A stretch of 64,000 nt of DNA, taken from Phycisphaerae bacterium (GTDB lineage: Bacteria > Planctomycetota > Phycisphaerae > UBA1845). The stretch lies in contig JAJDDT010000042.1 of assembly GCA_029260165.1 (NCBI GenBank), positions 62,001 through 126,000 on the forward strand, written 5' to 3'. Positions 1,159 through 30,750 of the stretch are shown piece by piece. Every line of letters starts with the position of its first letter. Positions within the stretch are counted from its first letter, which is position 1. A model generated the notes under the pieces. The model saw only the letters and a list, made by a program, of their open reading frames with translations, had not been told where the DNA came from and ran no database searches. A program made the translations under genes and the position numbers.

Positions 1159-2616
1159 ATGGTTGATCTGGCCAGACAATCTGTTCGGCGTGGGATGATT
1201 TTACCGCTGATGCTGCTCGTGTTGGTGCTGCTGGGCATGTTGGCGGCGAGCGGGTCGTTTTTTGTCCATGCGGATATGTCAGCCACTCGGTCGGGTGCGC
1301 GTCGGTTTCAGACGCGGATGGCGGCTGAGGCTGGTTTGGAGAAGGTGAAGTTGTTCCTGCGCGATCATCGGCTTGACGACGCGAGTTGGTATGACAATCC
1401 GGAGCAGTTTCATCGCGTGATTGTCTGGACGGAGACCGAGCAGGTTGAGGAATACGGTTCGGTCGAGGAGTACGATGAGCCGACGCAGAATTATCGGTTT
1501 AGTGTCGTGGCGGACAATCCGGACGATGACGAGGTGCTCGTTCGGTTTGGTGTGACGGATGAAGCCTCCAAAATCAATATCAATACGGCTCCCGTGTCGC
1601 AGTTGGTTGCGCTGATCACGCCGTTTATCGACGAGGAGGATGAGTGGACGGCTGAGCAGATTGCGGATGCCATTCTGGATTGGCGTGATGGTGATACGCA
1701 GCCGCGGCCGTTTGGGGCTGAGGCGGAGTATTATTCGCTTTTGGATCCGCCGTACGCGGTGAAAAACGGTCCGTTTGATACGGTGGAGGAATTGTTGCTG
1801 GTTCGGGGGATGACGGCTGACCTGTTGTATGGTGAGGATGTGGACCGCAACGGTCTGTTGAGTCCGAACGAGGACGATGGGGATTTGATTTTTCCGGACG
1901 ACGATCTGGACGGTTTTCTCAATCGCGGTGTGTACCCGTTTCTGACGGTGTATTCGCGTGATTTCAATACCGCAGCCGACAACAGTGCTCGCGTGTATCT
2001 GTTTGGGGATCCTGGTACGGTGACGTCGCAATTGACCGGGTTGGTGAGCAATGCGTCGCAGGTGGATTTCATCGTGAGTGCGGCGGCGGGTACGCCTCGG
2101 ATAACGTCGTTGGGGCAACTGATGGACCCGAGGGTTACTGAGGATGGTAATTCGCAGGCATCGTCGGTGACGTTGGCGGACATGGGCTGGATCACCGATC
2201 GGATCAGTCTGTCGCAGGAGCCTGATCGGTTGGGGTTGATCAACATCAACACAGCCTCTCCGACAGTGTTGCGGACGTTGCCGTCGTTGGAGGAGGAGGA
2301 TATTCAGTTGTTGCTGGAAGCCCGGGCGGAGGTGCCGTCGGAGGAGCGGGTCGATCTGGGTTGGGTGGCGGCGATTGTCGGGGCGGAGAAATTCAAGGCG
2401 ATCGAGCCCTTGCTGACGGTTCGGGCGATGCGGTTTCATGTCGAGGTGGTTGGGTATGGCGATCACCTCGGGACGATGACGCGTCTGGAATCGATTTTAG
2501 AGATGCGTGGTCCGGTCGCGCAAATCATTTACTTGCGTGATCTGACGAATCTGGGTACGAGCTATCCGGTGCGGTATCCAGTCGGAGATGAAGAACTTGT
2601 TGGGTACACTCGTTGA
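1159..2616 (+). CDS. gspK: GspK-like type II secretion minor pseudopilin
   Basis: Large minor pseudopilin that caps the T2SS pseudopilus with GspI and GspJ. The N-terminus carries RRGMILPLML followed by a hydrophobic helix. It lacks Glu at mature position 5, the known GspK exception among pseudopilins. Two helix-hairpin-helix-like segments with ININTA motifs (SKININTAPVSQL near residue 135, LININTASPTVLRTLP near 360) are the hallmark of the T2SSK family. At 485 aa it is longer than the roughly 330 aa of proteobacterial GspK. ATG 1159 was chosen over TTG 1153; neither has a clear Shine-Dalgarno. The end overlaps the next gene by 29 bases, implying translational coupling. Confidence 0.87.
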   Translation: MVDLARQSVRRGMILPLMLLVLVLLGMLAASGSFFVHADMSATRSGARRFQTRMAAEAGLEKVKLFLRDHRLDDASWYDNPEQFHRVIVWTETEQVEEYGSVEEYDEPTQNYRFSVVADNPDDDEVLVRFGVTDEASKININTAPVSQLVALITPFIDEEDEWTAEQIADAILDWRDGDTQPRPFGAEAEYYSLLDPPYAVKNGPFDTVEELLLVRGMTADLLYGEDVDRNGLLSPNEDDGDLIFPDDDLDGFLNRGVYPFLTVYSRDFNTAADNSARVYLFGDPGTVTSQLTGLVSNASQVDFIVSAAAGTPRITSLGQLMDPRVTEDGNSQASSVTLADMGWITDRISLSQEPDRLGLININTASPTVLRTLPSLEEEDIQLLLEARAEVPSEERVDLGWVAAIVGAEKFKAIEPLLTVRAMRFHVEVVGYGDHLGTMTRLESILEMRGPVAQIIYLRDLTNLGTSYPVRYPVGDEELVGYTR

Positions 2617-4177
2617 CAAACCGATCCTGGCGGTTGACTGGGATGTCAGGACGCTTCGCATTGTTCATGCGCGTGTGAGCAAAAGCTCGGCTGATATCGA
2701 GCAGGTGCTCAGTATCGCGATTCCGTCCGATGTGGACCGTGATGATCCCGAGTCGATGGGGAAGTTTGTCCGTGCGGCGCTCACGAAGGCGGGGATTACG
2801 ACCAAACGTGTGTTGTTCGATGTTTCCCGCGACCACGCCAACATCTACACCCTGATGCTGCCGCCTGCGACGTTGAACGATCTGGCAGGGATGGTGCAGA
2901 TGCAGATTCCGCGCGAGTTGCCCTTTCCGGTGGAGCAGGCTGCGATCGATTTTGCGGTGTCGCCGGAATTGGAAGGCGACAATCGACGGGTGTTGGTCGC
3001 GGCTGTTCAGCGCGAGACGTTGAAACATTTTACCGATGTTTTCGAGCACGCGGGTTTGAAGCTTGAACGCGTCGGGTTGCGTCCGAATGCGAATCAGTTC
3101 GCGGTCAACGAGATGCTCGAGCCGACGCAGCCGGACTATGTCCTGTTTGTCGATGTTGGTCCGGTGACGACGGAAATCACGGTGCTGCGTCGCGGTCAAC
3201 TGGTGTTTTCACGAGCGGCTGCGGTGGTGGTTCCGGATGCTTTCGACCAACCCGTGGCGGAACCGGTCGAACCGATGCCGGGGGATGGTGAGCCGGAGTT
3301 GCGACTTGCGACAGCCCCGACGCCGGAATCGACGTTGGCGGGCGTCGTTCGCGAGTTGACCATTGAGGTGACGCGTTCGATCGAAGCCTATCGTGCGACC
3401 GACCCCGAGGCGCATGTCGATCATATCGTCATTGGTGGTAGTTGTGATGTTGAGGACGCACTTTCCGAGGCGATTCAGCGTCAATACAGCATCAGCACGC
3501 AGCCGTACAACCCTGCGAAGTGTTTTGGATGGTCCGCGGATGAAGGGGCGGAAGCGGGCGCGTTTGCGTCGACGTTGGGTATGGTGCTGGGGCAGTTCAA
3601 GCCTGACGAGTTGAAGTTCAACCTGATCGATCCGAAGAAGCAGGTGAGCGTTGCTCAGCAGCGGATGCGCCGTGCGCCGGTGGCGGTTGTGACGGGGGTG
3701 GCTGCTGTTGCGGCGGTGGTGGTTTGTTATGTCAATTTTGTCAGGCCTTTGCATGTCGAGAACAAGGAGCTGGCAAGACAGAAGGCTGAACTGAGGGGCG
3801 AGCGCGACAGTCACGACGAGTTCAAGAAGCTGGTCAGGATTCTGGATGATTACGAGGACAACCGGGTGGTGTGGCTTGATGAGCTGCACGATGTTTTGTC
3901 GGCGGGTGTGCTCGCGGACAACAAGAGCATCGTGTTCAATCAGATCAATATGTCGAAGCGACGGGAACGCATCACGCTGCCGTTTCGGGCGGTCGCGGGG
4001 GCGGTTCCGAATGATGCGGTGAAGGATCTGGAAAATGTGAAGGCGGGTGAAGATGGTCATCTGAAGTACGATGCTGTTTTGGGTCCGACCAGTACGAAAG
4101 CGGGCGAAAAGTATCCGTTGATGGGAACGTTGAACGTTGGCCTGCTTGGCAACGAAAAGAAGGACGAGAAGAAGTGA
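2588..4177 (+). CDS. PilM/GspL-like inner-membrane assembly protein
   Basis: Predicted T2SS/type IV pilus inner-membrane platform protein that links the cytoplasmic ATPase to the periplasmic components. Residues 1 to about 345 form a PilM/GspL actin-like cytoplasmic fold, with an N-terminal DxxxxR-type opening (AVDWDVRTLRIV) and a later VDVGPVTTEITV phosphate-loop-like segment. A single membrane helix lies at about 361-383. It is followed by a charged, coiled-coil periplasmic part like GspL-C or PilN. At 529 aa it reads as PilM joined to PilN, which is the GspL plan. It overlaps gspK and precedes the GspM-like gene. GspL and PilM are both reasonable names. Confidence 0.8.
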   Translation: MKNLLGTLVDKPILAVDWDVRTLRIVHARVSKSSADIEQVLSIAIPSDVDRDDPESMGKFVRAALTKAGITTKRVLFDVSRDHANIYTLMLPPATLNDLAGMVQMQIPRELPFPVEQAAIDFAVSPELEGDNRRVLVAAVQRETLKHFTDVFEHAGLKLERVGLRPNANQFAVNEMLEPTQPDYVLFVDVGPVTTEITVLRRGQLVFSRAAAVVVPDAFDQPVAEPVEPMPGDGEPELRLATAPTPESTLAGVVRELTIEVTRSIEAYRATDPEAHVDHIVIGGSCDVEDALSEAIQRQYSISTQPYNPAKCFGWSADEGAEAGAFASTLGMVLGQFKPDELKFNLIDPKKQVSVAQQRMRRAPVAVVTGVAAVAAVVVCYVNFVRPLHVENKELARQKAELRGERDSHDEFKKLVRILDDYEDNRVVWLDELHDVLSAGVLADNKSIVFNQINMSKRRERITLPFRAVAGAVPNDAVKDLENVKAGEDGHLKYDAVLGPTSTKAGEKYPLMGTLNVGLLGNEKKDEKK

Positions 4178-5871: not shown

Positions 5872-5969
5872 CAGCCCCCTGGCTGCAACCTGCGCGGGGT
5901 CGTCGTTGAATGATCGGGTGTTGTTGGATGAATAGCAGGGAACCCCCGCTCGAAGCGTGGAGATCAAAC

Positions 5970-8900
5970 ATGACAGAATCGATGATAAGAATTACCCCCG
6001 GAAACGATCGACGTTCGGTCATCGGACTGATCGTTCTGGCGCTCGTCTACGTTGGGTTGGCGGGGACGGTCCGCGCGGGCGAACCTGGCGAGGAGTCCCG
6101 AGTGTTTGCGGCTGCCTTCGGAAGCAGTCAACCCAACCCGGTGATGCAGGCCCGTGACAATCCGCGATCCGCCGGCGGTGCCAGGAATCGATCCACACGC
6201 AAACCTCGTTCCACTCCCAAACCCAAACCCACGACGCCGGGTCGTAATCGCGGGAAGCAGAATACGCCCGCGCCAAGTGCCAATGTTGAAAAGGTCAGGG
6301 GCACGATCAATCTCGAAGCCGAGGAATTGCTGAAACCGGCTGAGGAACGAAGTTACAACTTCAGTCTCGTGGACGGGACGTATGCGAATCTTGTTGAGAA
6401 TTTTGCGCGTATGTCCGGGTTGGGCGTGATTGGTGACGCACCACAAGGGCAGGTGTCGTTTGTGAGCACGCAGGAGATGGATTTTCGATCGGCGTTGAAT
6501 CGCGTGCGCATGCTCCTGTTCAAGTTCAGTCCGATCGAACCCTATTGGCTGATGTACGAAGAGGAACATCTGGAGGTGCTCCGAGTCAATGACGTATGGC
6601 GGGTGATTGATCAGGACAAGTACCTGTTCATGAATGTGGCGGATTTTCGAGCGGCGCAGAAAAAGGGTGATCTGTATACGACCGACCTGGCCATGGTTCT
6701 TTACACGCCGACGGATACGTCTGTTTCGGATTTCACCATGCTGCGTGATTTCATGCCGGACTATGTTCGTATCGCGCCGATGGGCGGTACCAACTCGATG
6801 GCTATCTTCGCGCTGGTCAGTGATATCGAAAAATACCTGTCGTTGATCAAGCTGTTTGAGGGGGCGGGCGAGGATCCACGTGTTCTTATAAAGCTCGCCG
6901 TGAACCATCTTATCCCGAGCGTTGCGGTCACGACGCTGAACACGCTGATGGACGACCTGCAGGGTGTGGGTGGTGCAAAGCGTCCTCGTGGCAGGGTGCA
7001 GGACCCGACGGCCAGTCTGCCGGGTGAGCAGACCGTGCTCTTTCCTGATGACAATCAGGGCGTGCTCATCGTTCGGGCGATTCCTCGCGTCATCAAGGAT
7101 ATCGAGGAGATGCTCGCGTTCATCGATGTTCAGTTGGACGCGGAATTATCACCGGTTGTTATTCCGATCAGGTACGCCAGGGTTGACGAGGTTCGCGATC
7201 AGATTCACAGTTTGATTTCGGCGAGTGGTGGTGTCGCCGGAAAAAGTTCCACGGCGAAGCCTCGGCGGAACAAAGGCGGCAAACGCGGGGGCAGCAGCGC
7301 TCCGATTGTGACCGAAGGCCTGCTGCTGCTGGCCAATTCCAGAACGAACGAATTGATCGTTCGGGGAACCGAGGATGAGGTGAGCAGGGTCCGCCGTTAC
7401 ATTCGCCTGTTCGATGTTCCGGCTGATTCCGACAAGCCCGTCATTGTTTCGCTACAGCATGTTTCCCCGGAAGATATCAACACCACGATCACGCAGATTG
7501 TCCAGGGGCAGCGGGGAAAACGGGCGGCTGCGGAGAGACCCTTCAATTGCTATCCGGAGCCTGTGTCGGGGGCTTTGATTCTCGTCGGTGCCAGGGAGGA
7601 TGTCGAAGCCGCCAGGGATTTGATTGCCATCATGGATGTCGCGGCTGCGACGCCGACCCTGCATGCTCATCGGCTCGAGAATGCGTCCCCGTCGGTTGTG
7701 ATGGATCTGATCACGATTCTGGACGCCCCGGGGGCACCCTCGCCCGGAGGCAAGCGCCCACCGCGGGGGAGGAAAGCCTCCGGCAGCACATGGTATGTCG
7801 ACAACACGACCAACACGATTTACATGATCTGCACGGATGACGAATGGAACGAAAAGTATTTCCCGGTCATCAAACAAATGGACGAGGATGCTGCCGAGAT
7901 TCCGAGTCATGTGCTGATCGAAGTGAAGAACCTTGCGAGCGATGAAGCCGTCAATATTCTCCGTGAGATTTTCGCACCAGGTGCCAAGGGAGCGAACGCG
8001 TTTCGAATCATCGCCGCAAGCAACGGTATTGTCGTGGACGGTGCCTCCCCTGCTAAAATCGAACATATCCGCGAGGTGTTGGCAGACATCGACATCGATT
8101 CGGAAGGTCGTCAAAGGCGAATTTTCACGCTTGAATTCGCTGATCCCAACGAGATCAAAACCGTCATCGACTCGGGGATTGTCGGGTCGGGTCGTGTGAG
8201 GCGTGTCAAGCGTCCGCAGCCCGGAGCCGTTCCGGGTGTTATCACCACGGTCGTTGGTGATCTGCTGATCGTGAGTGCCTCGGCTGACGAATTGCTCGAT
8301 ATTGAAGAGCTTGTGAAGCAGTTGGACGTTGTCAGTGAGTCCGAGCGGTCCATTCGTGTTTACAGCGTACCGCCTGGTTTCGATGTGGAATCGATTGCAA
8401 CCCAGTTGGAGCAGTTGATCCGAACCACCGCACCTTCGGGTGCCCGTCGCCGAACCAAGAACCCCGCCTCGCAAGGGACTGACGGTTCGATTCAAATCGT
8501 CTCCCAGCCGATTTCGAGAAAGATTCTGATCAGAGCGCCGGAGGGGGATTTCTCTATGATTGAGGAGTCCTACGCGCTGCTGACCGCCGACGCGGAAATC
8601 GAACCGGTCGAGATTCGTTTCTTCCCGGTCGAGCATGTTGATCCCGGCGACGTTGCCAACATGATCGAGCCTTTCCTTCAAATGCGTGCGGAATCGTTGA
8701 TCAAATCGGGCGAATTGCGCGTCGAACCCGATGTTAGCAAGAGAAGTGCCATCACGACGGTGTCCACGATTCGCGTGTCGGCTGATCTTCACGGTGACCG
8801 TGTGTTGGTTGCAGGTCCCACGTCAATCATCCTTGAAGCAGAGCAGTTGATTCGGGAGATCGATCAGCCACCTGCGTCCACGGACGATCGCATTCTGCGA

Positions 8901-11900
8901 ACCATCGAGTTGTCACGCACGACGCCCGATCAGATGATCACCACCATCAAAGCCATGATCAACAGTGGATCCTCGTCACCCCGCAAGCCTGATCGCCCGC
9001 GCCGCCCGAGAATCCGCAAGTCCAAGTCCAAGTCCAAATCCAGTGAATCCGGTTCCGCCCTTGCTTCGGCCACCTCTGATGGTCCTCTGGATGTGACCAT
9101 CGCGTCCGCCCCGGGTGGAAACGCCGTGATCGTCAGTGGCGATGCCCATGATGTGGACGAGGTCGAAGCCTGGATTCGCAAACTCGACGGCGAAGCCACC
9201 GGCAGCACCGTTCTGAAAATCTACAACATCGTCAACGCCGAGGTCGAGGAGATGGCTGACACCATTATGGCGTTGTGCGATTCCGGCTCGCCGGGCAAGT
9301 CAAAACCGAAGGATGACGATTTTTCTTTCTACGAGCCAAATCCCGTGCGCAAAGGCGCGGACATTACGCTGACAACAGACTACTGGAACAAACGCATCCT
9401 GGTTCGTGCGACGCCCGCCAAGATCTACGAAATCGATCAGATCATCGAGCTGTACGAGGGTAAGGAGGGCGAGGAGCCCGAATTCCGGGGCGGCGGCGAG
9501 AATGTCCCGCTGTTGTTTTTTGAACTCGCCCACGCCGATCCGTTCGACGCCGAGTATCAACTCGAGAGCATTCTCCCGGTGGTCTGGACCCATTCAGAGG
9601 AAATCCCCGACATCGACTACATCCCGGGTACGCAGTTGCTCGTCGTCAAAGCCAAGACCGAGTATCACTCCGAGATCAAGGGATACATCACAAAATACAT
9701 CGACAAGCTTGACGAAGAGGGAACGCCCGATCGGGTCGTCAAGTTCAAGGATATCACCGGTATGACCGCCAGTGACATGGCAGGGATACTTAAGTCTCGT
9801 CTGCCCCATCTCAATGTTGATTTGATTCAGATTGGCGAAGATATTCCGCAGTTGAAGCCCGTCGGTCCTTATAGTCCGCCCGCCGAGGCACAACCGCAAT
9901 GCGTCCTGCCGGCTTCGCTGGCCAAACTCCTGTCGGTCACCACGATTTCTCAGGCGCCATCCGGTCGCGACAATGAGAAGGAAAAAGCAGCGACAAAAAT
10001 CGCGCAAGCATTCGTTGCGCAAAGCGAAGGCGTCGGGTTGGACGGAGGAAACAGCGACACGAACAGCGATGCCACCGGCGAAGAGTCCGTCGCAGACGAG
10101 CCAATCACGATTCGATTCGACGACCGCACGGGTGTCATCGCCCTCGAGGGCGCGCCCAAAGACGTCGATGCCATTTCGGAACTGGTCGAGGAGTTGATCA
10201 AACAACGCGAATCCTCCTCACGCAAGATGGAGGTCCGGGTCTACCGTGTGCGCTACCGCGACGTGAATGAAGCCACCAACGTCCTCATGAACGCCCTTGG
10301 GATCCAGCGAGCAACCCAGGCCAACCGTGGAAACGCCGCAGCACAAGCCGCCCAGCTTCGTCGCCAAATGCAGCAAATGCAGCGAGCGCAGAAGGCTGCG
10401 GGGGGACGGCCGGGCGCTCAGCCCAACGCCGTGCCGCAACCGAATATCGACCCGCGCACGGGAATGCCCATGCAGGAGGAAAAAAAAGAGGATTCCAAAA
10501 AATCAGGCCTCGGTGACGTTCGCATCACGCCCGATCCCAAAAACCGCTTCATGATCATCACGGCTGCCACCGAGGATTTCCCGGTCATCGTCGAGTTGCT
10601 CGCGACCATCGACCGACCGTCCGAGGTCGACAAGAGTTTCAAAATCTACAAACTCACCAAGCTCATCGCGTCCGATGTCGAGGGACAACTAAAGGAACTG
10701 CTCGGCATCAGTGCGGCCAAAGCATCCACCCGCAGACCGACAGCCAACCCAGGCACGCGCAATCGTCGTGGCGGCAACAATCAAAACCGCGCCAATCAAC
10801 AGATAGAAGACGCCCTGATGCAATTCGCCAGCCTCGGTGCCAATGGCGGGACCATCGACGTTGCCTCGGACGTCACCGTCACCAGCAACCCATCAGCCAA
10901 CACGCTGCTCGTCAATGCCCCGGAACCGGTCCACGAAATCATCGCCGAATTCATCAAGGATCTCGAAGCGCAGGACATCCCCACCCTCGAAACCCGCACC
11001 TATCGGATGACTCATTCCGATGTCGCCGCCTCCGCAGAACAACTCACAAAAATGTTCAGTCAGCGCAAGGGCGATGCTGGTTATGATCCCAACGCGGTCA
11101 ACAAAGCCACCTTCACGGCGGACCCACGCACGAACACCCTGATTGTCCAGGCATTTGACACCGATTTCGACAAGATCGAGCCGCTGATCACCAAACTCGA
11201 CGAGGACATGGGTGACGACGCCGACGTCCTCACCTTCAAACTCGAATACGCCGACGCAACCCAGACCGCCCGAACACTCAACGAAGTCTATGGACAGGGC
11301 GGAGGTAAACGCGGTGCCAAGGGTGTGAAAATCGTCGGCGATCCGTCGTCAAACACGCTGTTTGTGACGGCTCCACAAAATCAGCGGGACGACATCTCCG
11401 CGCGCATCATCGAAATCGACGCCCAGGCCGCCGACGTCATCGAACCGAGAACGATTAAAATCGTCGCGGGCGATCCCGACAAGATCGCCCAGTCGCTCAA
11501 GACGGTCTTTACCAGCGGCGGCGGCAAGTCGGGCAAAGGGGCCATCACCATCGTCGGCGACAGCGTCGGCGGACAGGTGATCGTCTCCGCACCGGACGAC
11601 GTCTTCAACAAAATCGAGTCGCTGACCCGGAAAATGGACCAGTCTACCATCGGCGAAAAAGTCAACATGCGCGTGTTCAAACTCGAACACGCCCAGGCCG
11701 TCGAAGTCCATGGCCAGATCATGAACCTCGTCCGACAGATGGGTCAGCAACTCGGTCCACAGGCGCGTGAAATGGGGGTGTTCACGGCAGTCCCCGACGA
11801 ACGCTCCAACGCGATCCTGTGCATGGGCAGCCCGATTTCATTCGTGCTCGTCGAAAAAGCGATCAAGGAAGTGGACGTCCCACCCACGGACGCAACCCAG

Positions 11901-13715
11901 GTCGTCACCGCCATCTATCGCCTCGTCCACGCAGACGCAACGGAACTGGCCAGCAACATTACGCGCATCTTCACGGCCAAGCGAGGCACCGGCGTCGAAC
12001 CACCCAAGGCAGAAGCCAACCGCTCCAACAACATCCTCATCGTCCGAGGCACCGAATCGCAAATCAAACAAATCAACGAAGAGGTCATCAAGCCTGTCGA
12101 GGACAAAGCCTCCGGACACAACGTCATTCGCGAAATCGTTGCCCTCGAACATGCCGACGCAGCCGACATCGCCCGAATCCTCAACGAAAACATGAACAAG
12201 ATGAGCGGTGGGCAGCGCAAGGGTCAGCCAATCTCGGTGATCGCCAACGCGGCGCTCAATTCCATTGTCATCAACGGTGCCGAGTCGGACGTGACCGATC
12301 TCGTCACCCTTGCGAGTGATCTCGACAAGGAACCCTCGCACGCAACCGACCGCAGTGTCAGGAATTTCCCCCTCGCCCACACCAACCCGTGGGTGATCGC
12401 CGACGCGATCCGACAGATCTACCGACCCAAACGCGGACCCTCCAACCCGGCTGACGAAGTCGTCGCCATCGCCGAAGGAACCGCCATGGCGGTCATCGTC
12501 TCCGCCTCACAGAAAAACATGGCCAGGGTCACCGAGCTGATCGCAGAGCTTGACAAACCGGGCGCTTCGGACAGCGACGTTCACGTTGTTGAAATCAAAC
12601 ACGCCGACGCAGCCAGCGTTGCTCAAAGCCTGACCCAACTCTTCGTGCACGGCGGTGGAGGCAGAAATGTCCGCGGACAGTCCACGATTCAAATCACCAA
12701 CCCGAGAGGCAGCGACATGCTGCTGATCAAAGCCAATCAGACGGAACTCGACCGAATTCTCGCCGTGGTCGAGGACCTCGATCAATCGTCAGGCAATACC
12801 GACGAAATCAAGATGATCGTCCTGAAAAACACCGACGCCGACATGATGCAGCAAGCCATGGAAAACTACCTCCGCAAACCGGGTCAGCGCGGCGGGGAAC
12901 TCGTCGGCGACGTACGCATGACCGCCAACACCCAGAACAACACGCTCATGGTCTCCGGAGATCCCGAGGAAGTCGCCCGCATCGAGGGTATCATCAGCAA
13001 CCTGGACGTCGAAGTCGAAGGCGCTGCCAACGCACCACGCATCATCCAGCTCGAACACGCCCGCGCCTCCCAAATTCAACCAACGCTCGACGAAATGTTT
13101 GGTCAGGCCAGCGGTAAGGGAAAACGCGGCAGAAACAACAAGACCGAAGCACCGATCATCGTTGCAGATGACGCCAGCAACACGTTGTTGGTCCGTGCAA
13201 GGCCCACCGATTTCGCCATAGTTGAGGATCTCGTCGAAATGCTCGACAAAAAACCCGAAGAGGATCGGGAACCGATTCGAATTGTTTCCGTCGCTGAGGG
13301 TGTCAAGGCAGCCGACATGGCTGACCTCATTCAGTCCACCGTGAACGAAAGTGAGCGCATCCGTGCTGAACAAACCGGTGGCGACGCTGCCACCATCGTC
13401 GTCAGTGCGTACCCACGCGGGAACGGATTGATCCTGGCTGGTTCACCCGCACTCTTTGAAAATGCCACAAAACTGATCCGCGATCTCGAGACGATGGGTG
13501 TGACGGGCGGAAACAGCGTCCGAATCCTCAAGACGAAAAATATTTCTGCGAGCGAAATTCAGCGTTTACTCAACCAGGTTATTGACGAGAATGGTCGGTC
13601 AAGCGGAACGTCATCGGGCGTCCGCCGGTCGGGGGGTCGAAACAATCGATCGTCCGGTCGAGGCTCGAACACGCGGCGTCTGCCGCGACGAAACAGCCGG
13701 GGAGGGCGTCGTTAA
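5970..13715 (+). CDS. Giant secretin N-domain repeat protein without a secretin barrel
   Basis: A 2,581-aa predicted exported protein. ATG 5970 was chosen because GGAG lies 7 bases upstream and the protein then begins with a classical signal peptide (hydrophobic about 16-33, cut near VRAG); ATG 5910 lacks both. After a low-complexity stretch there is an N0/STN-like domain (about residues 90-180). About 25 repeats of 70-110 aa follow, each with hydrophobic-x-x-ADA-type helices, an NTLIVxA-type strand and a closing (I/L)xxLD helix: the secretin N1/N2 fold (Secretin_N). The 26th repeat is cut in half, followed by a Ser/Arg/Gly tail. No C-terminal secretin beta-barrel is present. Gly/Lys/Arg-rich loops interrupt many repeats. 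It probably works with the true secretin encoded next. Confidence 0.85.
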   Translation: MTESMIRITPGNDRRSVIGLIVLALVYVGLAGTVRAGEPGEESRVFAAAFGSSQPNPVMQARDNPRSAGGARNRSTRKPRSTPKPKPTTPGRNRGKQNTPAPSANVEKVRGTINLEAEELLKPAEERSYNFSLVDGTYANLVENFARMSGLGVIGDAPQGQVSFVSTQEMDFRSALNRVRMLLFKFSPIEPYWLMYEEEHLEVLRVNDVWRVIDQDKYLFMNVADFRAAQKKGDLYTTDLAMVLYTPTDTSVSDFTMLRDFMPDYVRIAPMGGTNSMAIFALVSDIEKYLSLIKLFEGAGEDPRVLIKLAVNHLIPSVAVTTLNTLMDDLQGVGGAKRPRGRVQDPTASLPGEQTVLFPDDNQGVLIVRAIPRVIKDIEEMLAFIDVQLDAELSPVVIPIRYARVDEVRDQIHSLISASGGVAGKSSTAKPRRNKGGKRGGSSAPIVTEGLLLLANSRTNELIVRGTEDEVSRVRRYIRLFDVPADSDKPVIVSLQHVSPEDINTTITQIVQGQRGKRAAAERPFNCYPEPVSGALILVGAREDVEAARDLIAIMDVAAATPTLHAHRLENASPSVVMDLITILDAPGAPSPGGKRPPRGRKASGSTWYVDNTTNTIYMICTDDEWNEKYFPVIKQMDEDAAEIPSHVLIEVKNLASDEAVNILREIFAPGAKGANAFRIIAASNGIVVDGASPAKIEHIREVLADIDIDSEGRQRRIFTLEFADPNEIKTVIDSGIVGSGRVRRVKRPQPGAVPGVITTVVGDLLIVSASADELLDIEELVKQLDVVSESERSIRVYSVPPGFDVESIATQLEQLIRTTAPSGARRRTKNPASQGTDGSIQIVSQPISRKILIRAPEGDFSMIEESYALLTADAEIEPVEIRFFPVEHVDPGDVANMIEPFLQMRAESLIKSGELRVEPDVSKRSAITTVSTIRVSADLHGDRVLVAGPTSIILEAEQLIREIDQPPASTDDRILRTIELSRTTPDQMITTIKAMINSGSSSPRKPDRPRRPRIRKSKSKSKSSESGSALASATSDGPLDVTIASAPGGNAVIVSGDAHDVDEVEAWIRKLDGEATGSTVLKIYNIVNAEVEEMADTIMALCDSGSPGKSKPKDDDFSFYEPNPVRKGADITLTTDYWNKRILVRATPAKIYEIDQIIELYEGKEGEEPEFRGGGENVPLLFFELAHADPFDAEYQLESILPVVWTHSEEIPDIDYIPGTQLLVVKAKTEYHSEIKGYITKYIDKLDEEGTPDRVVKFKDITGMTASDMAGILKSRLPHLNVDLIQIGEDIPQLKPVGPYSPPAEAQPQCVLPASLAKLLSVTTISQAPSGRDNEKEKAATKIAQAFVAQSEGVGLDGGNSDTNSDATGEESVADEPITIRFDDRTGVIALEGAPKDVDAISELVEELIKQRESSSRKMEVRVYRVRYRDVNEATNVLMNALGIQRATQANRGNAAAQAAQLRRQMQQMQRAQKAAGGRPGAQPNAVPQPNIDPRTGMPMQEEKKEDSKKSGLGDVRITPDPKNRFMIITAATEDFPVIVELLATIDRPSEVDKSFKIYKLTKLIASDVEGQLKELLGISAAKASTRRPTANPGTRNRRGGNNQNRANQQIEDALMQFASLGANGGTIDVASDVTVTSNPSANTLLVNAPEPVHEIIAEFIKDLEAQDIPTLETRTYRMTHSDVAASAEQLTKMFSQRKGDAGYDPNAVNKATFTADPRTNTLIVQAFDTDFDKIEPLITKLDEDMGDDADVLTFKLEYADATQTARTLNEVYGQGGGKRGAKGVKIVGDPSSNTLFVTAPQNQRDDISARIIEIDAQAADVIEPRTIKIVAGDPDKIAQSLKTVFTSGGGKSGKGAITIVGDSVGGQVIVSAPDDVFNKIESLTRKMDQSTIGEKVNMRVFKLEHAQAVEVHGQIMNLVRQMGQQLGPQAREMGVFTAVPDERSNAILCMGSPISFVLVEKAIKEVDVPPTDATQVVTAIYRLVHADATELASNITRIFTAKRGTGVEPPKAEANRSNNILIVRGTESQIKQINEEVIKPVEDKASGHNVIREIVALEHADAADIARILNENMNKMSGGQRKGQPISVIANAALNSIVINGAESDVTDLVTLASDLDKEPSHATDRSVRNFPLAHTNPWVIADAIRQIYRPKRGPSNPADEVVAIAEGTAMAVIVSASQKNMARVTELIAELDKPGASDSDVHVVEIKHADAASVAQSLTQLFVHGGGGRNVRGQSTIQITNPRGSDMLLIKANQTELDRILAVVEDLDQSSGNTDEIKMIVLKNTDADMMQQAMENYLRKPGQRGGELVGDVRMTANTQNNTLMVSGDPEEVARIEGIISNLDVEVEGAANAPRIIQLEHARASQIQPTLDEMFGQASGKGKRGRNNKTEAPIIVADDASNTLLVRARPTDFAIVEDLVEMLDKKPEEDREPIRIVSVAEGVKAADMADLIQSTVNESERIRAEQTGGDAATIVVSAYPRGNGLILAGSPALFENATKLIRDLETMGVTGGNSVRILKTKNISASEIQRLLNQVIDENGRSSGTSSGVRRSGGRNNRSSGRGSNTRRLPRRNSRGGRR

Positions 13716-13839: not shown

Positions 13840-16800
13840 ATGAAATCACGGTCAACGCGCATTTTCCCCACACGCTGTACCGTCGTCTCGGCCCTTGCGG
13901 TCGCGATCCTGCTGCCGGTCATCACCGCCGCCCAGCAAAAGACGAAATCGCCATCCGACCAGGAAACCGAAGCCATCCGCCGCATGGTCGCCGCCGGTCA
14001 GAAACAGCAGACCGCCGACGCGCCGCTTGATCTGAAGTTATCCGGAAACGACGTGACTGTCGAGACGCTTCCCACCGGTGAAATCGTGCTCATGGGCAAC
14101 GACGCCGACCTCGACATCCTCGAATCCTTCATCAGTATGCTCGATCGTCAGATTCCCGAAAAAGACATCGTCATCCACACCCTCGCAAAAGCAAGCGCCG
14201 AACAGGTCGCCCAAAAACTCGAATCCATCATCCCCGAGGTCTTTCCAGGCATCCAGGAACTGCCCGATCAAAGCGTTTCAGTCCAGGCCCTCTCATCCTC
14301 CGTCCTGCTCATCGCCGCCCCGGCTGAACGCATCGATCGCATCATCCAGATCATCGAAGCCATCGACGAGGTCGAAGCCTCCCTGCAGGATTTTGAAGTC
14401 ATGCGATTTCAGATCAAGTACCGAAAAGCCGGCGAAGTCGCGACCCAGCTCGAAGAGGTCGTCAAGAAAATCCAGACCAAGCAGGGTGCGGACGCAGCCG
14501 AGGAAGTAACCTTCGACGTCAACGACGCAGACAACAGCATCACCATCTTCGGCCCCGAAACACTCAGGGATCAGATTCAGAAAATCATCGACACCATCGA
14601 CGTCGAACCCGCCGAAGGTTTCAGCCACCTCAAACTCGTCATGTACCCGCTGCTCAACGTACAGGCTGACGACATGAAATCGGTGCTCGAGGAAATGCTC
14701 AAATCTGCCGAAAGCGGGCAGGATGTGCAGGAAGCCATCCGCCGCCTCAGCGTTATCAAGCGGGGTGCCGACGGTTCACAGTCCGAGCTTCAACCCCTCG
14801 ACCTCGACAAACCGCTTCGCGTGTTGGCTGACAAGGGCACCAATTCGCTCATCATCGCCACGATCGAGAAGAACATCGAACCCCTTGGCGAGATCGTCGC
14901 TCTGCTCGACGGTGTGCCCATCGCGCACGAAATGGGACTGGAAATCTTCCCGCTCAAATTCGCCGACGCCGACGCGCTCAAGGAACTCATGGAGCAGATG
15001 TTCGACGACGGCAAGAAACTGCCCGAGCGCGCTCCAGGCGGCGATCGCACCGAAGCCATCCCGCCCGACTCGGTCGGTTCCGCTTTCATGCACAACATCA
15101 ACATCAAAGCCGACAAACGCACCAACATCCTGATCGTCTCCGGTCGTCCGGGGCAACTCGCCCTCGCCCGCACCGTGGTTGAGGAACTCGACGTCCCGAT
15201 GTCAGCCGCCAGATTCCCGCTCAGGCTGCTTTTCTGTGGTCAGAATGTGGACTCAGGTCGCGTCAAAGCCATCGTCGAGGAACTATTCACCAGGCGAAAG
15301 GAAACCCTCGAAAAGACCGATGCAGGCGAGCTAGCCGTTGCCCGCGAGGAGGTGTTCATCGCCGTCGATTCGCGCAGCAACGCACTGATCGTCTCCGCCA
15401 GTGAATCGAACTACGACGAAATCCGGAGCGTCGTCGATGAGTTGAACGTCGCCATCGATCGCCTCGTCGATAACATCCGAATCATCAATTGCGAAAACAC
15501 GCACGCCGCCGACCTCGCCACCAAAGTCGACGAGCTTTGGGAGCGAAAATCGCGTCTGCGAAGCCAGGACGAACTGCCGGAAGACAAACCGATCCTCGTC
15601 GCAGACACACGCTCCAACGCACTGATCGTCGCCTCTAGCAACGAGGATTTCGCCGAAATCAGTGATCTGGTCGCCAAGCTCGAAGCCCAACCGCTCTCAC
15701 CGATCGCCGAAATCCGCCTGCTCACGTTGCAAAACAACGACGCAAGCCAGGTCTCCGACATGCTCAAGCAGCTCTTCGAGGAACGCGCCCAGCAACGCCT
15801 CGCCCAGGGGCAGGAAGAGAACCCCGCCGACCGGGTCGCCGTTGCAGCCGACCCTGCCACCAACACCATGCTCATCGCCTCCAGCAAGGAAAACTACAAC
15901 GAGATGATGCGCATCATCGACGCCATCGACGTCGAACCCGACATGGACGGCGTGGTCAATATCTACGTCCTGCAAAACGCCGAAGCCCAGCCCGTCGCCG
16001 ACAAGATTCAGGAACTGTTCGACCAGGGTCTCTACAGTCCAATGGCCGGCATCGGTGACAACGCCATCGTCGAGGAACGCAAGAAAGTCGCCATCATCGC
16101 CGACGTCCGATCCAACGCGATCATCGTCAGCGCCTCCAAGCCGAATCTTTCCATCGTCCAAAGCCTGATCGAACGCATGGACGGTGAAATCTCCGACCTC
16201 TTCGCCGAAAACTACAAACTCATCCCACTGCTCCACGCCGACGCCGTCAAACTCGTCGGTATGCTCGACAAGCTCTTCGACGGCCAGGCATCCGCCGCCT
16301 CGGATCAGGACATCTATCCCAAACCGACCATCATCGCCGACGCCCGCAGCAACACGCTCATCATCACAGGCACCCGCGATGCCCTCGGACGCTGCGGCGA
16401 CCTCGTCAGCCAGCTTGACCGACCCGCTGGCCCGCCAACCTCCGTCTTCGAGGTCTACACGCTCGCCCACGGGTCCGCCGCCAAGCTCGCCACCCGCATG
16501 CAGGAACTTTTCGACCAGCGATCCGAAGGTCAGGACGACGCAGCAACCCCCATATTCATTCAGGCGGACGAAACCTCCAACAGCCTCATCGCCAGCGCAG
16601 CCCGCGACGACCACGTCCTCATCGTCGGTCTGCTCGAATTGCTCGACAAACCATCCAACATCGCAAAACAGTTCCACATTTTCCCGCTGCACGCAGGACG
16701 CGCCGAAGCAATCGCCGAAACCATGGACCAACTCTTCCAGCAACAGGCGGAAGGCTCCAGCGGTCGAGCCGACGCGATCGCCGTCCAGGCAGACCCACGC

Positions 16801-18789
16801 AGCAACTCGCTGGTCGTCTGGGCATCCGCCTCCGAGATGGACAACATCGCGACCATCGTCGAAAAACTCGACACCGCCCGACCCGCCGTCGAAATGATGA
16901 TGCGCGTCGTCCGACTCAAGCAAGCCCTCGCCGAGGACTTCGCAGAATCCTTCGAGGAAACACTTATGGGCGGTCAGACCAGCGGCGGTGATGACCAGGA
17001 AGCCATCATCGTCTCCTTCATCCAGAAAAACGATGACGGCACCGAGGTTCTCCGCAAGCTCCTCCGCCAGGACATCACCATCAACCCGGACCCACGAACC
17101 AACTCCCTCATGGTGATGGCCCCTGCGGAAAGCATGGATATGCTCGAAGCCCTTATCCTGGACTTCGACAGCATCGCACCCGCCGCCGCCGAAATCAGCT
17201 TCTACCAGCTCGCCAACGCAGACGCGGAAGAGGTCAAGGAAAGACTCGACGAACTATTCAGCACCGAGGAACAGGACAGCGACGACAATCTTGAGCAGCG
17301 AATTGTTTTCGGTGGCGAGGGAGGTGGAACGGTCCAGGTCAGCGGAGACGCTGGTGGAAACCGGCAGATGATTCGGTTCACCGCCGATCGTCGAACCAAT
17401 TCCATCATCGCCGCAGGCAACCGCGTCGATCTCGACATGGCTGAGGAACTCATCCGCATGCTCGATTCCCAGGACATCGACGAACGTATTCAGGAGGTCT
17501 ATCGCCCCAGACACATCACCGCCTCCGTCATGGCCGAAAACCTGACGCAGTTTGTCGAAGCCGAAAACGATGTGCTTGGCGAGCTTGACGACGAAAGCTC
17601 TGTCCGCCGCCGCGCCGAAAAACAAATCAGCGTCGTCGGTGATGAGGACACGAACCTCCTTCTCGTCGGTACAAGCCCCAAATACTACGACGACGTCAAC
17701 GAACTCATCCGCCAGATCGACCGACCCGAACCACAGGTCATGATCTCCGTGCTCATCGCCGAGGTTTCCGTCGACGATCGCTTTGAACTCGGCGTTGAAT
17801 TCGCCGCACAGGATTTGCACTTCTCACAAAACGCAACCACAGGACGCAACGGTGTTATCCAGGGCAACGGATTCGACGTCATCGCAGGAACCGATATCGG
17901 AGCCGCCGGCGCGGGATTTGGCGGACTTTCACTCACCATCTCCGGTGAGGATTTCGCCTTCCTTTTCCGCGCTCTCGACTCCCAGGGCCAACTCGAGGTC
18001 CTCTCCCGTCCGACCCTCCTCGTCCAGAACAACGCCACTGGCAACATCACCATCGGTGACCGCGTGCCCATCGTTTCGGGCACCACCAGCGCGGGAGGTC
18101 AAAGCTCAACCCAAATTCAGTACGAAGAAGTCGGCATCATTCTCGACGTCACTCCGCACATCAATCCCGATGGCTATGTGAACCTCGAGATCGCCCCCGA
18201 AATCTCCCAGATCTCCAACCAGGCGCTGCAGGTCTCCGAAGGTTTGGTCGCGACCGTCTTCTCCCAGCGAACCGCCGAAACCACCGTCACCGTGCGCGAC
18301 GGCGAAACCGTCATCCTCGGCGGCCTTATCACCGAAACCGTCGAGGATGCCGAAACCAAAGCGCCAATCCTCGGCGACATCCCATTTCTCGGAGACTTCT
18401 TCAAAACGACCACGAAAATCTCAAACAAGACCGAATTGCTCATCGTTCTCACCGTCGATGTCGTCCGCGACGAATACGAACTCCGCGAAGCCTCCGAACA
18501 CGAACGCGACCTGGCTGAGTTCCTCCCGGATCGCGTCAAACGACATCGCCTCATGCAGGGCATGCGCATTAAACCGGACGACGACGTGTTCGGGCCCGTT
18601 GAAGACATCGAAAACGGCATGCCCGCAGAGCCTGCAACAACCCCCAAACGCGACAAGGGTATCTACGGCCCAAGCCTCAAAACCTACGGACCTGCCACCC
18701 CGACCGCAGCCAAAAAGGTCAACCAAAACCCGGAACACGCCGCCGCAAGGCGGTATGGTCCCAGGCTTGTCCGTGACGATTCCAAATGA
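13840..18789 (+). CDS. gspD: Giant GspD-like secretin with about 14 N domains
   Basis: A 1,649-aa outer-membrane secretin. AAGGAAG lies upstream of ATG 13840, and residues 1-31 form a signal peptide (ILLPVITAAQ). Residues about 60-1295 hold about 14 Secretin_N-type repeats, each with an N(A/S/T)LI(I/V) strand. Residues about 1296-1535 are a canonical secretin domain: QVMISVLIAEV, SRPTLLVQNN, VPIVSG, YEEVGIILDVTPHI, VRDGETVILGGLI and PILGDIPFLGDFF. E. coli-type GspD has four N domains, so this gate would carry a very long periplasmic vestibule. The tail (about 1560-1649) is basic and Pro-rich and may help outer-membrane targeting. It is co-directional with the giant partner 124 bp upstream and overlaps the following lipoprotein gene by four bases. 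Confidence 0.93.
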   Translation: MKSRSTRIFPTRCTVVSALAVAILLPVITAAQQKTKSPSDQETEAIRRMVAAGQKQQTADAPLDLKLSGNDVTVETLPTGEIVLMGNDADLDILESFISMLDRQIPEKDIVIHTLAKASAEQVAQKLESIIPEVFPGIQELPDQSVSVQALSSSVLLIAAPAERIDRIIQIIEAIDEVEASLQDFEVMRFQIKYRKAGEVATQLEEVVKKIQTKQGADAAEEVTFDVNDADNSITIFGPETLRDQIQKIIDTIDVEPAEGFSHLKLVMYPLLNVQADDMKSVLEEMLKSAESGQDVQEAIRRLSVIKRGADGSQSELQPLDLDKPLRVLADKGTNSLIIATIEKNIEPLGEIVALLDGVPIAHEMGLEIFPLKFADADALKELMEQMFDDGKKLPERAPGGDRTEAIPPDSVGSAFMHNINIKADKRTNILIVSGRPGQLALARTVVEELDVPMSAARFPLRLLFCGQNVDSGRVKAIVEELFTRRKETLEKTDAGELAVAREEVFIAVDSRSNALIVSASESNYDEIRSVVDELNVAIDRLVDNIRIINCENTHAADLATKVDELWERKSRLRSQDELPEDKPILVADTRSNALIVASSNEDFAEISDLVAKLEAQPLSPIAEIRLLTLQNNDASQVSDMLKQLFEERAQQRLAQGQEENPADRVAVAADPATNTMLIASSKENYNEMMRIIDAIDVEPDMDGVVNIYVLQNAEAQPVADKIQELFDQGLYSPMAGIGDNAIVEERKKVAIIADVRSNAIIVSASKPNLSIVQSLIERMDGEISDLFAENYKLIPLLHADAVKLVGMLDKLFDGQASAASDQDIYPKPTIIADARSNTLIITGTRDALGRCGDLVSQLDRPAGPPTSVFEVYTLAHGSAAKLATRMQELFDQRSEGQDDAATPIFIQADETSNSLIASAARDDHVLIVGLLELLDKPSNIAKQFHIFPLHAGRAEAIAETMDQLFQQQAEGSSGRADAIAVQADPRSNSLVVWASASEMDNIATIVEKLDTARPAVEMMMRVVRLKQALAEDFAESFEETLMGGQTSGGDDQEAIIVSFIQKNDDGTEVLRKLLRQDITINPDPRTNSLMVMAPAESMDMLEALILDFDSIAPAAAEISFYQLANADAEEVKERLDELFSTEEQDSDDNLEQRIVFGGEGGGTVQVSGDAGGNRQMIRFTADRRTNSIIAAGNRVDLDMAEELIRMLDSQDIDERIQEVYRPRHITASVMAENLTQFVEAENDVLGELDDESSVRRRAEKQISVVGDEDTNLLLVGTSPKYYDDVNELIRQIDRPEPQVMISVLIAEVSVDDRFELGVEFAAQDLHFSQNATTGRNGVIQGNGFDVIAGTDIGAAGAGFGGLSLTISGEDFAFLFRALDSQGQLEVLSRPTLLVQNNATGNITIGDRVPIVSGTTSAGGQSSTQIQYEEVGIILDVTPHINPDGYVNLEIAPEISQISNQALQVSEGLVATVFSQRTAETTVTVRDGETVILGGLITETVEDAETKAPILGDIPFLGDFFKTTTKISNKTELLIVLTVDVVRDEYELREASEHERDLAEFLPDRVKRHRLMQGMRIKPDDDVFGPVEDIENGMPAEPATTPKRDKGIYGPSLKTYGPATPTAAKKVNQNPEHAAARRYGPRLVRDDSK

Positions 18790-28298: not shown

Positions 28299-28336
28299 AA
28301 GTGGGTGACAGTCCATTCGTATATTGCAAGGACGAT

Positions 28337-29047
28337 ATGAAGCTACAACTAATGATTGAACTGGAGGGGGCCGTCGCGGATGTCATGGCGGTCTACTGGA
28401 AAGCGTACACGCATGCGACCGACGAGCTTGGGTTGGCAAGGACGGACCAGAACGTGTTCCGGCGTGTCCTGCGGCAGGGTCATCCGATCGGTGCGACGAT
28501 TCGCGGAGCCAGGCCTGACAAAATCGCAGCGTTTCAAAAGCTGTTTCAGGAGACTCTTGAAGCGGATGAGACCGTGGGTGAGATGGTCGTTCAGGACGAA
28601 ATCCGGGCGGCGTTGTCGCGGCTTCGTGATTTTGGGGAATGCAATCTGGTCACATGCGGGTCCAACAAGGGAGCAAGGCAGCGTTGGCTTGACGAGCATG
28701 ATTTGTCGATCATGTTCACGCGCATGGCGGTCCTGGCTGCGGCGCGCGATCGTCGCGCTGTAACGATGCAGGGATTGCTCGAGGATGGTTGTCAGGCGTT
28801 GGTGGTGGCATCCTCGCCGACGGTGGTCGCGACCGGATGCAGTTGCGATATGGTGACGGTGGGGATCGCCGGGGGCGTTGCAACGTCGCAAAAACTGACC
28901 CAGGCTGGCGCGACGCACATTTTCGCAGACCTTGGTGATATTGTGGCTGACCTGGAAAAGGGTGGTTCGACGCTGTTGCAGTGCGGGTTGCCACCGGGGG
29001 CGGTTCGCAGGGACTGGTCTGTTTCCACGAATGTACGCAGGTTCTGA
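28337..29047 (+). CDS. HAD-superfamily-like protein lacking catalytic aspartates
   Basis: A 236-aa soluble protein whose layout follows phosphoglycolate phosphatase-type HAD enzymes: motif I at the N-terminus, a helical cap, VTCGSNKG as motif II, and a C-terminal AGATHIFADLGDIVADL typical of the PGP group. Motif I reads IELEGAVADV instead of DxDGTxxD, and the motif IV aspartates are absent (VVASSPTVV), so hydrolase activity is unlikely. AAGGA precedes ATG 28337; GTG 28301 is an alternative start. It lies 38 bases after rseP and one base before the next gene, so it is probably co-transcribed. Confidence 0.7.
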   Translation: MKLQLMIELEGAVADVMAVYWKAYTHATDELGLARTDQNVFRRVLRQGHPIGATIRGARPDKIAAFQKLFQETLEADETVGEMVVQDEIRAALSRLRDFGECNLVTCGSNKGARQRWLDEHDLSIMFTRMAVLAAARDRRAVTMQGLLEDGCQALVVASSPTVVATGCSCDMVTVGIAGGVATSQKLTQAGATHIFADLGDIVADLEKGGSTLLQCGLPPGAVRRDWSVSTNVRRF

Positions 29048-29048
29048 T

Positions 29049-30248
29049 ATGCAATGGATTGGAAACGTTTTTCTTTTGGCGTTTCTTGTTCTCGCACTCA
29101 TGATTCATTCCACGGCGCTCGCGACCGAAAAGACGATCCCGCCGATTGATGAGATTTCGGTGGCGGATTTTGAGGCGGTGTTTGTCGTGTTCGCGGTCCG
29201 CGCCGGTCCGGATTGGGCACTGGGGTCAACCTTTCGGCAAGCGGCGGAGCAGATGGGACGTATTGAGGGAGCTGGACCGCTGTTTGCTCGACGCACTGCG
29301 GGCGGTTTGACGCACATTGGTTTTTTCACGCAGGGGGTTTCTGTGGCACCGAACGGTTTTGCGGTGAAACGATGGCGAAGCTATCGGGCGGCCACGGTTC
29401 GCGCTGTTGGGCGTTATGGAACCATTTCGCGACACGTTGATCGGCTTCGCGCGTGGGTGGAAGATAACGGGTTCAACGCGACCGGAGACCTGATTGAAAT
29501 CTACCCCGACCGCGTGGACGGGCAATCGGTGTTTGAGATTCGGTTGATGCTCGGTGATGACGATCAGACGGTGCGGGGTGCGTCGTCGCAGACGCGCGAC
29601 GCGGTGGATGTTGCGGGTGCGACAACAGGCACGCCCGCCTTGGAATCGACAACGGCCGAGGAGCCCGAGGCGGTTGTCGCGTTGGAATCCGCCGTTGAAA
29701 CGCAGTCAGTCGCGCCCGCGGACCTATCGAAGCCTGATTCGGATATTGAAAATCAAAACGTCGCAACAACGGTCTTGGTGGAGGTTGTCGAACTCGATCG
29801 CGGGGTTGGAGAGCTGGTCGCCGCGGGTGATTTGAAGATGGCGTCCGAGCGTGCGCTGCCTGATTATCCTGGGATTGCCCCCGGATCGCGCAGGTGGATT
29901 CAACTGGTTCGTGATCGCGTTCGCGTGCTGGGCGTTCTTCTTGATCGCAAGCACGGGGACAAGGTGGCGGAGCTGAGTCAATTCATGGAGGCTGTCGTTT
30001 CCAGATGTGATGTGCTGGTTGCGACGGTGTCGGATCAGACAACGCCGGTAACCATGAATGCCCGGATCGATCGGTCGCCCTTTCTTGATGAGCTTGACAA
30101 ACTGATCGTGCACGTTCACATCAAACCATCGGGCCCTGACGAACTTCGCGAACGTATTGTTGATCTTTTTGAGCGAATGGCGACGATGAACAAGCAGAAC
30201 GGTCAAGGGGTGTTGGTTTCTCCGACTACGGACACCACTCCCGACTAA
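29049..30248 (+). CDS. Exported protein with GyrI-like effector-binding domain
   Basis: A 399-aa protein with an N-terminal signal peptide (hydrophobic 5-22, cut near STALA). Residues about 30-180 resemble the GyrI-like/SOUL small-molecule-binding fold (GSTFRQAAEQ, YRAATVRAVGRYGTISRHVDRLRAWV, IEIYPD). A disordered Thr/Glu/Val-rich linker (about 185-255) and a helical C-terminal domain follow. GyrI-like domains are usually cytoplasmic ligand sensors, so an exported copy is uncommon. The start lies one base after the preceding stop. Ligand and role are unknown. Confidence 0.72.
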   Translation: MQWIGNVFLLAFLVLALMIHSTALATEKTIPPIDEISVADFEAVFVVFAVRAGPDWALGSTFRQAAEQMGRIEGAGPLFARRTAGGLTHIGFFTQGVSVAPNGFAVKRWRSYRAATVRAVGRYGTISRHVDRLRAWVEDNGFNATGDLIEIYPDRVDGQSVFEIRLMLGDDDQTVRGASSQTRDAVDVAGATTGTPALESTTAEEPEAVVALESAVETQSVAPADLSKPDSDIENQNVATTVLVEVVELDRGVGELVAAGDLKMASERALPDYPGIAPGSRRWIQLVRDRVRVLGVLLDRKHGDKVAELSQFMEAVVSRCDVLVATVSDQTTPVTMNARIDRSPFLDELDKLIVHVHIKPSGPDELRERIVDLFERMATMNKQNGQGVLVSPTTDTTPD

Positions 30249-30270
30249 TTGCGAAGGAAAGGGATATTCC

Positions 30271-30750
30271 ATGAACCACATGCGCATCGGTGTGGCTGGG
30301 GTCGTGCTGACGACGCTGGCTTTGCTGGCAGGTTGTGCGTCGCGGAGCGATTTCACGCTCAAGACGCTCGACGGCGAAGACGTCACGATTGGCAGGCAGC
30401 AGGACAAGGCTATTCTGCTCGCGTTTTTCGCTCACGGGTGACCACCCTGTCGTGCGGAGGTTCCGCACTTAATCGAGCTTCATAACAAGTATGAGGGCAA
30501 GGGATTTCGCGTCGTGGCTGTCAATACCTGGGATGAAGATGCAAAGTTGCTCAAAAAATTTGTGAAAAAAGAGAAGGTACCCTATCCAATCCTGCTGAAC
30601 GGTAGCTCCGTGGCGGATGATTGGGGCGTGAAGTATCTGCCGACGAATTTCCTCCTGGACGCAGATGGCAAGGTAATCATGGAGTTGGATGGGCTCGGTA
30701 CAGAGGACATGTCGAAAGTCGGGAAAGCGATCGATGAGCTGATCGAGTGA
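30271..30750 (+). CDS. TlpA/ResA-like thioredoxin lipoprotein, probable selenoprotein (UPPC active site)
   Basis: Predicted periplasmic thiol-disulfide oxidoreductase of 159 aa, if TGA 30439-30441 is read as selenocysteine (Sec57). The frame runs from ATG 30271 (upstream AGGAAAGGG) through a lipoprotein signal ending LLAGC and FTLKTLDGEDV, to AFFAHG-U-PPCRAEVPHL. The TGA sits exactly at the first Cys of the CPPC motif; Cys60 is the resolving residue. After the TGA the same frame continues as a normal thioredoxin fold (FRVVAVNTWDED, cis-Pro in YLPTNFLLDADGK) to the stop at 30748-30750. The Trp normally preceding the motif is Gly. A SECIS-like hairpin follows the TGA. Alternatives are a sequencing error or a nonsense mutation; TGA is a normal stop in the neighbouring genes, so general recoding is excluded. 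Confidence 0.85.
30452..30468 (+). promoter_or_regulatory. Candidate bacterial SECIS hairpin
   Basis: Perfect 6-bp stem GTGCGG (30452-30457) / CCGCAC (30463-30468) with the five-base loop AGGTT. There are 16 bases between the TGA (ends 30441) and the loop, and a G is the second loop base. Bacterial SECIS elements are known to need an apical loop with an early G about 16-37 bases after the UGA, so this fits at the short end. It lies inside the coding region (RAEVPH). Confidence 0.75.

Follow-up and report, generated by a model that had tools for sequence, protein, structure and literature searches.

Is the TGA codon that interrupts a thioredoxin-like gene in a Phycisphaerae bacterium a stop signal, or is it read as selenocysteine (Sec)? 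The gene lies at positions 30271-30750 of the window, by which we mean the whole stretch of 64,000 nucleotides that was analysed (contig JAJDDT010000042.1). We conclude, with a probability of roughly 95%, that it encodes a selenoprotein, in which UGA 30439 specifies Sec57 in the UPPC active site of a TlpA/ResA-like thioredoxin anchored to the membrane outside the cytoplasm. Given that dozens of related genomes keep both the TGA and a hairpin behind it, the codon is almost certainly read as Sec. We infer Sec incorporation itself from the codon, the insertion machinery, the conservation of the hairpin, the predicted fold and the constraint on the sequence. The features of the locus are listed in Table 1.

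Table 1. Features of the candidate selenoprotein locus (window coordinates)
Feature	Position	Strand	Remarks
HAD-hydrolase-like gene, second upstream	28301..29047	+	Identified by eye; syntenic
Upstream gene for a secreted protein, weak GyrI-like match	29049..30248	+	ORF listed from TTG 28932; ATG 29049 likelier
Shine-Dalgarno-like AGGAAAGGG	30255..30263	+	ATG 7 nt further on; read directly from the sequence
Predicted Sec-containing TlpA/ResA-like thioredoxin lipoprotein	30271..30750	+	159 aa with TGA 30439 as Sec
Lipobox L-A-G-C	30325..30336	+	Cys22 is the predicted lipidation site; sequence pattern
TGA, predicted selenocysteine codon	30439..30441	+	Position 1 of the UPPC active site; aligned TGA in homologues
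Predicted resolving Cys60 (TGT) of U-x-x-C	30448..30450	+	Alignment column invariant
Predicted bacterial SECIS hairpin	30452..30468	+	Stem GTGCGG/CCGCAC, loop AGGTT; conserved, covarying; -12.8 kcal/mol
cis-Pro position, Pro124 of LPT (thioredoxin-fold signature)	30640..30642	+	Invariant column P124; fold model

The reading frame and its predicted product

Read directly from the sequence, the frame starts with the ATG at 30271, ends with a TGA at 30748-30750 and has the TGA at 30439-30441 as its sole internal stop. The internal codon corresponds to residue 57, within FFAHG-U-PPCRAEVPHL, where TlpA/ResA proteins carry their first active-site Cys. Without read-through, the same region would yield an ORF of 56 aa up to the TGA and another of 78 aa from GTG 30514, the next in-frame start. 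A first-pass annotation, made from the sequence alone, had described this frame, the replacement of the first Cys of CPPC by TGA, the truncation at 30514 to be expected from automated callers and a hairpin shortly after the codon. Its coordinates all agree with our reading, including the start at 30514, and its account of the hairpin (stem, loop, 10- and 16-nt spacings, G at loop position 2) is exact.

The read-through product matches the Pfam families AhpC-TSA (PF00578; 6.1e-22, 78.3 bits against a gathering score of 26) and Redoxin (PF08534; 6.3e-20, 71.9 bits against 26.6), with a further match to Thioredoxin_8. The nearest solved structure is ResA, both by sequence (4.9e-19) and by fold (Foldseek 1.5e-14; TM 0.77/0.88 for the ResA-type structure 4nmu), and the AlphaFold2 model has a thioredoxin fold with a mean pLDDT of 87.8. 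Thus, the Pfam scores, the UxxC motif, the fold and the cis-Pro all place the protein among the TlpA/ResA-like thioredoxins (PF00578/PF08534). None of the NCBIfam models attains its cut-off against this protein: the ResA model NF002854 reaches 83.1 bits (cut-off 170), and NF041054, which describes a WAxxUGC protein, reaches 32.9 bits (cut-off 300), the motif here being UPPC, not UGC.

The N-terminus reads as a signal peptide followed by a lipobox of the LxGC type (LLAGC). Of 25 Sec homologues, 22 share a lipobox pattern, and the remaining three have a similar ..GC at the equivalent place. Export and lipidation of the product are predicted from these features.

Sec machinery and the meaning of the UGA codon

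The first-pass annotation had named selA, selB, selC (tRNA-Sec) and selD as genes to look for in the same genome, and all four are present. The tRNA-Sec scores 68.1 bits against an Rfam cut-off of 47, and ARAGORN assigns it the anticodon tca. The selA, selB and selD genes exceed the cut-offs of their NCBIfam models, and selB and selA are adjacent on contig C5. In the selD gene (L018, G000:C10:9728-10648), a TGA stands in frame at the Sec/Cys position (..SCAGUAGKLP..), and a perfect 9-bp hairpin with the loop CGGT comes after it; judging by this codon and hairpin, SelD is itself a selenoprotein. Two redoxins very likely are as well. Each has an in-frame TGA at position 1 of UxxC and a possible hairpin behind it: one reads FWUTSC (L105, G000:C68:90974-91354), and the other, FWUPFC, lies ~14 kb past the end of the window (L109, G000:C56:140371-140724). 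Two other SECIS-like pattern hits in the genome fall in no recognisable protein frame and were taken as chance. Formate dehydrogenase was considered as an additional selenoprotein, but none of the molybdopterin oxidoreductases present has an in-frame TGA.

Within the family, selA is matched in 47 of 51 genomes. Given that nearly every genome has selA, its co-occurrence with the TGA gene is not discriminating. No selA match was found in two genomes that do have the TGA homologue, G027 (83% complete) and G044 (98% complete); these absences are probably assembly gaps. We also observed an in-frame TGA in the selA of G028 (G028:C353:463-1812), which likely reflects an assembly gap or error.

Another possibility is that a changed code or near-cognate decoding makes the UGA specify Trp, Arg, Cys or Gly. 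We regard this as very improbable. The gene itself terminates in TGA, so the genetic code is not simply altered; the internal TGA aligns with a catalytic Cys; and the genome has tRNA-Sec, SelA, SelB and SelD, with a covarying SECIS-type hairpin behind the codon.

Conservation of the hairpin and of the TGA

In the candidate SECIS element, nucleotides 30452-30457 pair with 30463-30468 to form a perfect 6-bp stem around the loop AGGTT (30458-30462). The stem begins 10 nt and the loop 16 nt after the TGA, and loop position 2 is G. Published rules for bacterial SECIS elements call for a loop of 3-9 nt, a stem of 4-16 bp, a G as the first or second base of the loop, a distance of 16-37 nt from the UGA and an MFE of at most -7.5 kcal/mol (PMC13188914). 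Compared rule by rule, the hairpin lies within all four published constraints, at 16 nt and with an MFE of -12.8 kcal/mol against the limit of -7.5. It also fits a G[G/U] loop with a closing A-U (PMC13188914 constraints).

For a single gene, this hairpin proves little. The 17-nt element has no second copy in the window (0.03 expected by chance with two mismatches allowed), and of the synonymous codings of this protein at local codon usage ~3% are expected to form a perfect stem, which makes the hairpin alone only weakly unusual. Moreover, its bases are shared with conserved codons (RAEVPH), and the protein sequence thus dictates many of them. The hairpin could therefore be a by-product of these codons, with Sec inserted through some other downstream signal, and the single-gene value (P ~0.03) leaves room for such an explanation. 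The homologues leave very little. A perfect stem is present in 45 of 49 TGA genes (it is imperfect in L030, L035, L048 and L086) versus one of 13 Cys homologues, L047 being the only one able to pair all six positions. Within the family (25 TGA genes), standard pairs fill 98% of the cells, and one pair is altered on both sides, in 6 sequences. In the phylum as a whole, where 43 distinct TGA sequences were compared, double-sided changes are seen in three pairs. There, 14 cells are doubly changed (shuffled mean 1.6) and the covariation score is 0.192 (0.066 shuffled), in each case with 0 of 500 shuffles as high, although these counts overstate independence because the sequences are related. When the partner arm is slid, paired cells in the same 43 sequences fall from 98% to at most 78%.

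The compensation can be followed at the level of codons. The silent third base of the Pro codon tracks the Ala, Glu, Val or Lys codon in front of it, such that CCG goes with GCG, CCT with GAG and CCA with GTG. In three sequences (L099-L101), His is replaced by Tyr (CAC to TAC) together with a change of GTGCGG to GTAAGG (RKEAPY); the partner is CCTTAC, and both pairs are kept. A mere by-product of the protein sequence would explain neither the silent base nor the paired His-to-Tyr change, nor why Cys homologues nearly always lack the hairpin, and we give this explanation even less weight than a reassigned UGA. What decides in favour of Sec is conservation and covariation over homologues, rather than the statistic for one hairpin.

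A TGA homologue at exactly the position of residue 57 occurs in 25 of the 51 genomes of the family, in all cases with a lipobox or lipobox-like Cys. One of these is a protein of the same genus that is 68% identical and has the identical TGA. Cys forms also occur at this column within the family (L028, CPFC; L043, CPPC; TGC or TGT). The search of the class brought in a second family of the order with Sec homologues (L070, L074, L075 and L077-L079), as well as further Cys forms (L076, L080 and L081). The search of the phylum added longer TlpA proteins (L086-L103, many of ~464 aa) in which TGA replaces the first active-site Cys and nearly all of which have a corresponding hairpin with the loop AGGCT or AGTCT. 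A contig-level search with the protein found only two distant Cys homologues. The sel genes, the conserved TGA and the covarying hairpin in TGA-bearing relatives bear out the Sec reading proposed at first pass, as do the homologues with TGC or TGT in the same column, which exist and nearly always lack the hairpin.

In the domain tree, every Sec row falls in a single clade (96/93), inside which six Cys rows are nested. The window gene belongs to a Sec-only group of six from the family (92/79). The Sec/Cys label needs 7 changes on this tree (bootstrap 7-7), which indicates that switches between Sec and Cys were repeated.

These comparisons also bear on whether the gene is intact. If it were a pseudogene, or if its product ended after 56 aa with the remainder starting at GTG 30514 or decaying, standard gene callers would yield exactly the 56-aa and 78-aa pieces that they are expected to give here. 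However, amino acids behind the TGA are conserved: relative to the same-genus homologue, dN/dS is ~0.07 upstream of the TGA, where synonymous sites are close to saturation, and 0.21 downstream, so the downstream part is translated and constrained. Cys60 and the following helix, which lie between the TGA and GTG 30514, are conserved, and the TGA is kept at one residue across a phylum. We consider a truncated or decaying gene hardly credible. Finally, a sequencing or assembly error hiding a TGC or TGT of an ordinary CPPC TlpA would require just a single base in an assembly of 119 contigs, but it is excluded in practice by the identical TGA in 24 other genomes of the family, including the 68% identical same-genus protein, and by a hairpin that goes with TGA and not with TGC or TGT.

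Relation to known systems and possible role

Published catalogues already include UxxC selenoproteins in three groups, namely TlpA-like (cd02966), Prx-like (PF00578) and Redoxin (PF08534) (PMC1088965, PMC2398784, PMC9312934 and PMC13188914), the TlpA-like and Prx-like ones since 2005, and selenoproteins in planctomycetes were reported earlier (PMC4807772). The thiol-disulfide isomerase-like selenoprotein from the Sargasso Sea (cd02966, 2005) shares with our protein the TlpA-like fold, Sec as the first residue of UxxC and a predicted bSECIS (PMC1088965; PMC13188914 Table 1). Its description, in the accessible parts of these sources and compared by description only, mentions neither a lipoprotein clade nor its lineage. 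The Prx-like thiol:disulfide oxidoreductase selenoprotein (PF00578) and the Redoxin family selenoprotein (PF08534; PMC13188914) share the UxxC motif, and these two Pfam families are the best and second-best matches here. Compared by description only, both are presented in the accessible parts of the sources without a lipoprotein anchor or a gene neighbourhood. ResA of Bacillus and TlpA of Bradyrhizobium have the same fold and a membrane-anchored extracytoplasmic placement, which is predicted for our protein, but their active sites have Cys in place of Sec. The NF041054 protein is also a ResA-like selenoprotein, with the Sec motif UGC instead of UPPC.

The first-pass description of a "probable new selenoprotein" therefore stands as to selenoprotein but not as to a new kind, since UxxC selenoproteins of the TlpA-like, Prx-like and redoxin types are already catalogued (PMC13188914 Table 1); the gene represents a new clade within a known kind. 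We found no description of this Sec lipoprotein clade in the literature searched, in which catalogued representatives were compared by description only. What is new is a lineage-wide lipoprotein clade outside the NCBIfam cut-offs, its covarying SECIS and a gene order conserved in five genomes.

This order, consisting of the HAD-like gene, the gene for the GyrI-like secreted protein and the Sec lipoprotein gene, is found in the present genome and in G042, G038, G008 and G037; the HAD-like and GyrI-like pair adjoins the Sec gene at loci L022, L023, L025 and L026. The GyrI-like match is below the cut-off (PF06445, 9e-4), and the HAD-hydrolase-like gene matches no Pfam family. The GyrI-like gene is separated from the Sec gene by 22 nt and is probably co-transcribed with it. 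Downstream lies an NnrE/YjeF_N gene, which only the present genome has in this place among the 3-kb loci compared. Elsewhere in the window, two adjoining genes on the plus strand encode giant proteins, one of 2601 aa with 14 Secretin_N stretches (5910-13715) and one of 1649 aa with 13 Secretin_N and a Secretin domain (13840-18789). They follow a PilM-like gene (2588-4177) and are unusually long multi-N-domain secretins. The genes of the window point to no particular phylum, and a search for the planctomycete marker PSCyt1 drew a blank here and in the controls alike.

For the Sec gene, we propose that translation from ATG 30271 would first produce an N-terminal lipoprotein signal peptide. The hairpin would then recruit SelB with Sec-tRNA(Sec) at UGA 30439, placing Sec at residue 57. 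The product would be exported and lipidated and act as a UPPC thiol-disulfide reductase, with Sec57 as the attacking nucleophile and Cys60 as the resolving thiol. With less confidence, and by analogy with the TlpA/ResA family, its putative activity may be the reduction of disulfides or peroxides outside the cytoplasm, and electrons might come from a DsbD/CcdA-type membrane thiol carrier, which is a guess from the same family. The upstream GyrI-like secreted protein might similarly be a partner of the Sec lipoprotein. Our broadest suggestion is speculative and, on balance, somewhat doubtful: an unnamed, lineage-defining clade of Sec-dependent extracytoplasmic lipoprotein reductases may extend across the order, one subclade of which would have a dedicated secreted GyrI-like partner and thus form a small selenium-dependent envelope redox module.

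Since standard gene callers would be expected to break up or miss the gene in all genomes of the lineage, databases probably lack a conserved selenium-dependent envelope enzyme. These genes also offer an unusually clean case of a SECIS hairpin kept by compensatory changes within coding sequence. With several nested switches between Sec and Cys, they make testable what Sec contributes to an extracytoplasmic thioredoxin.
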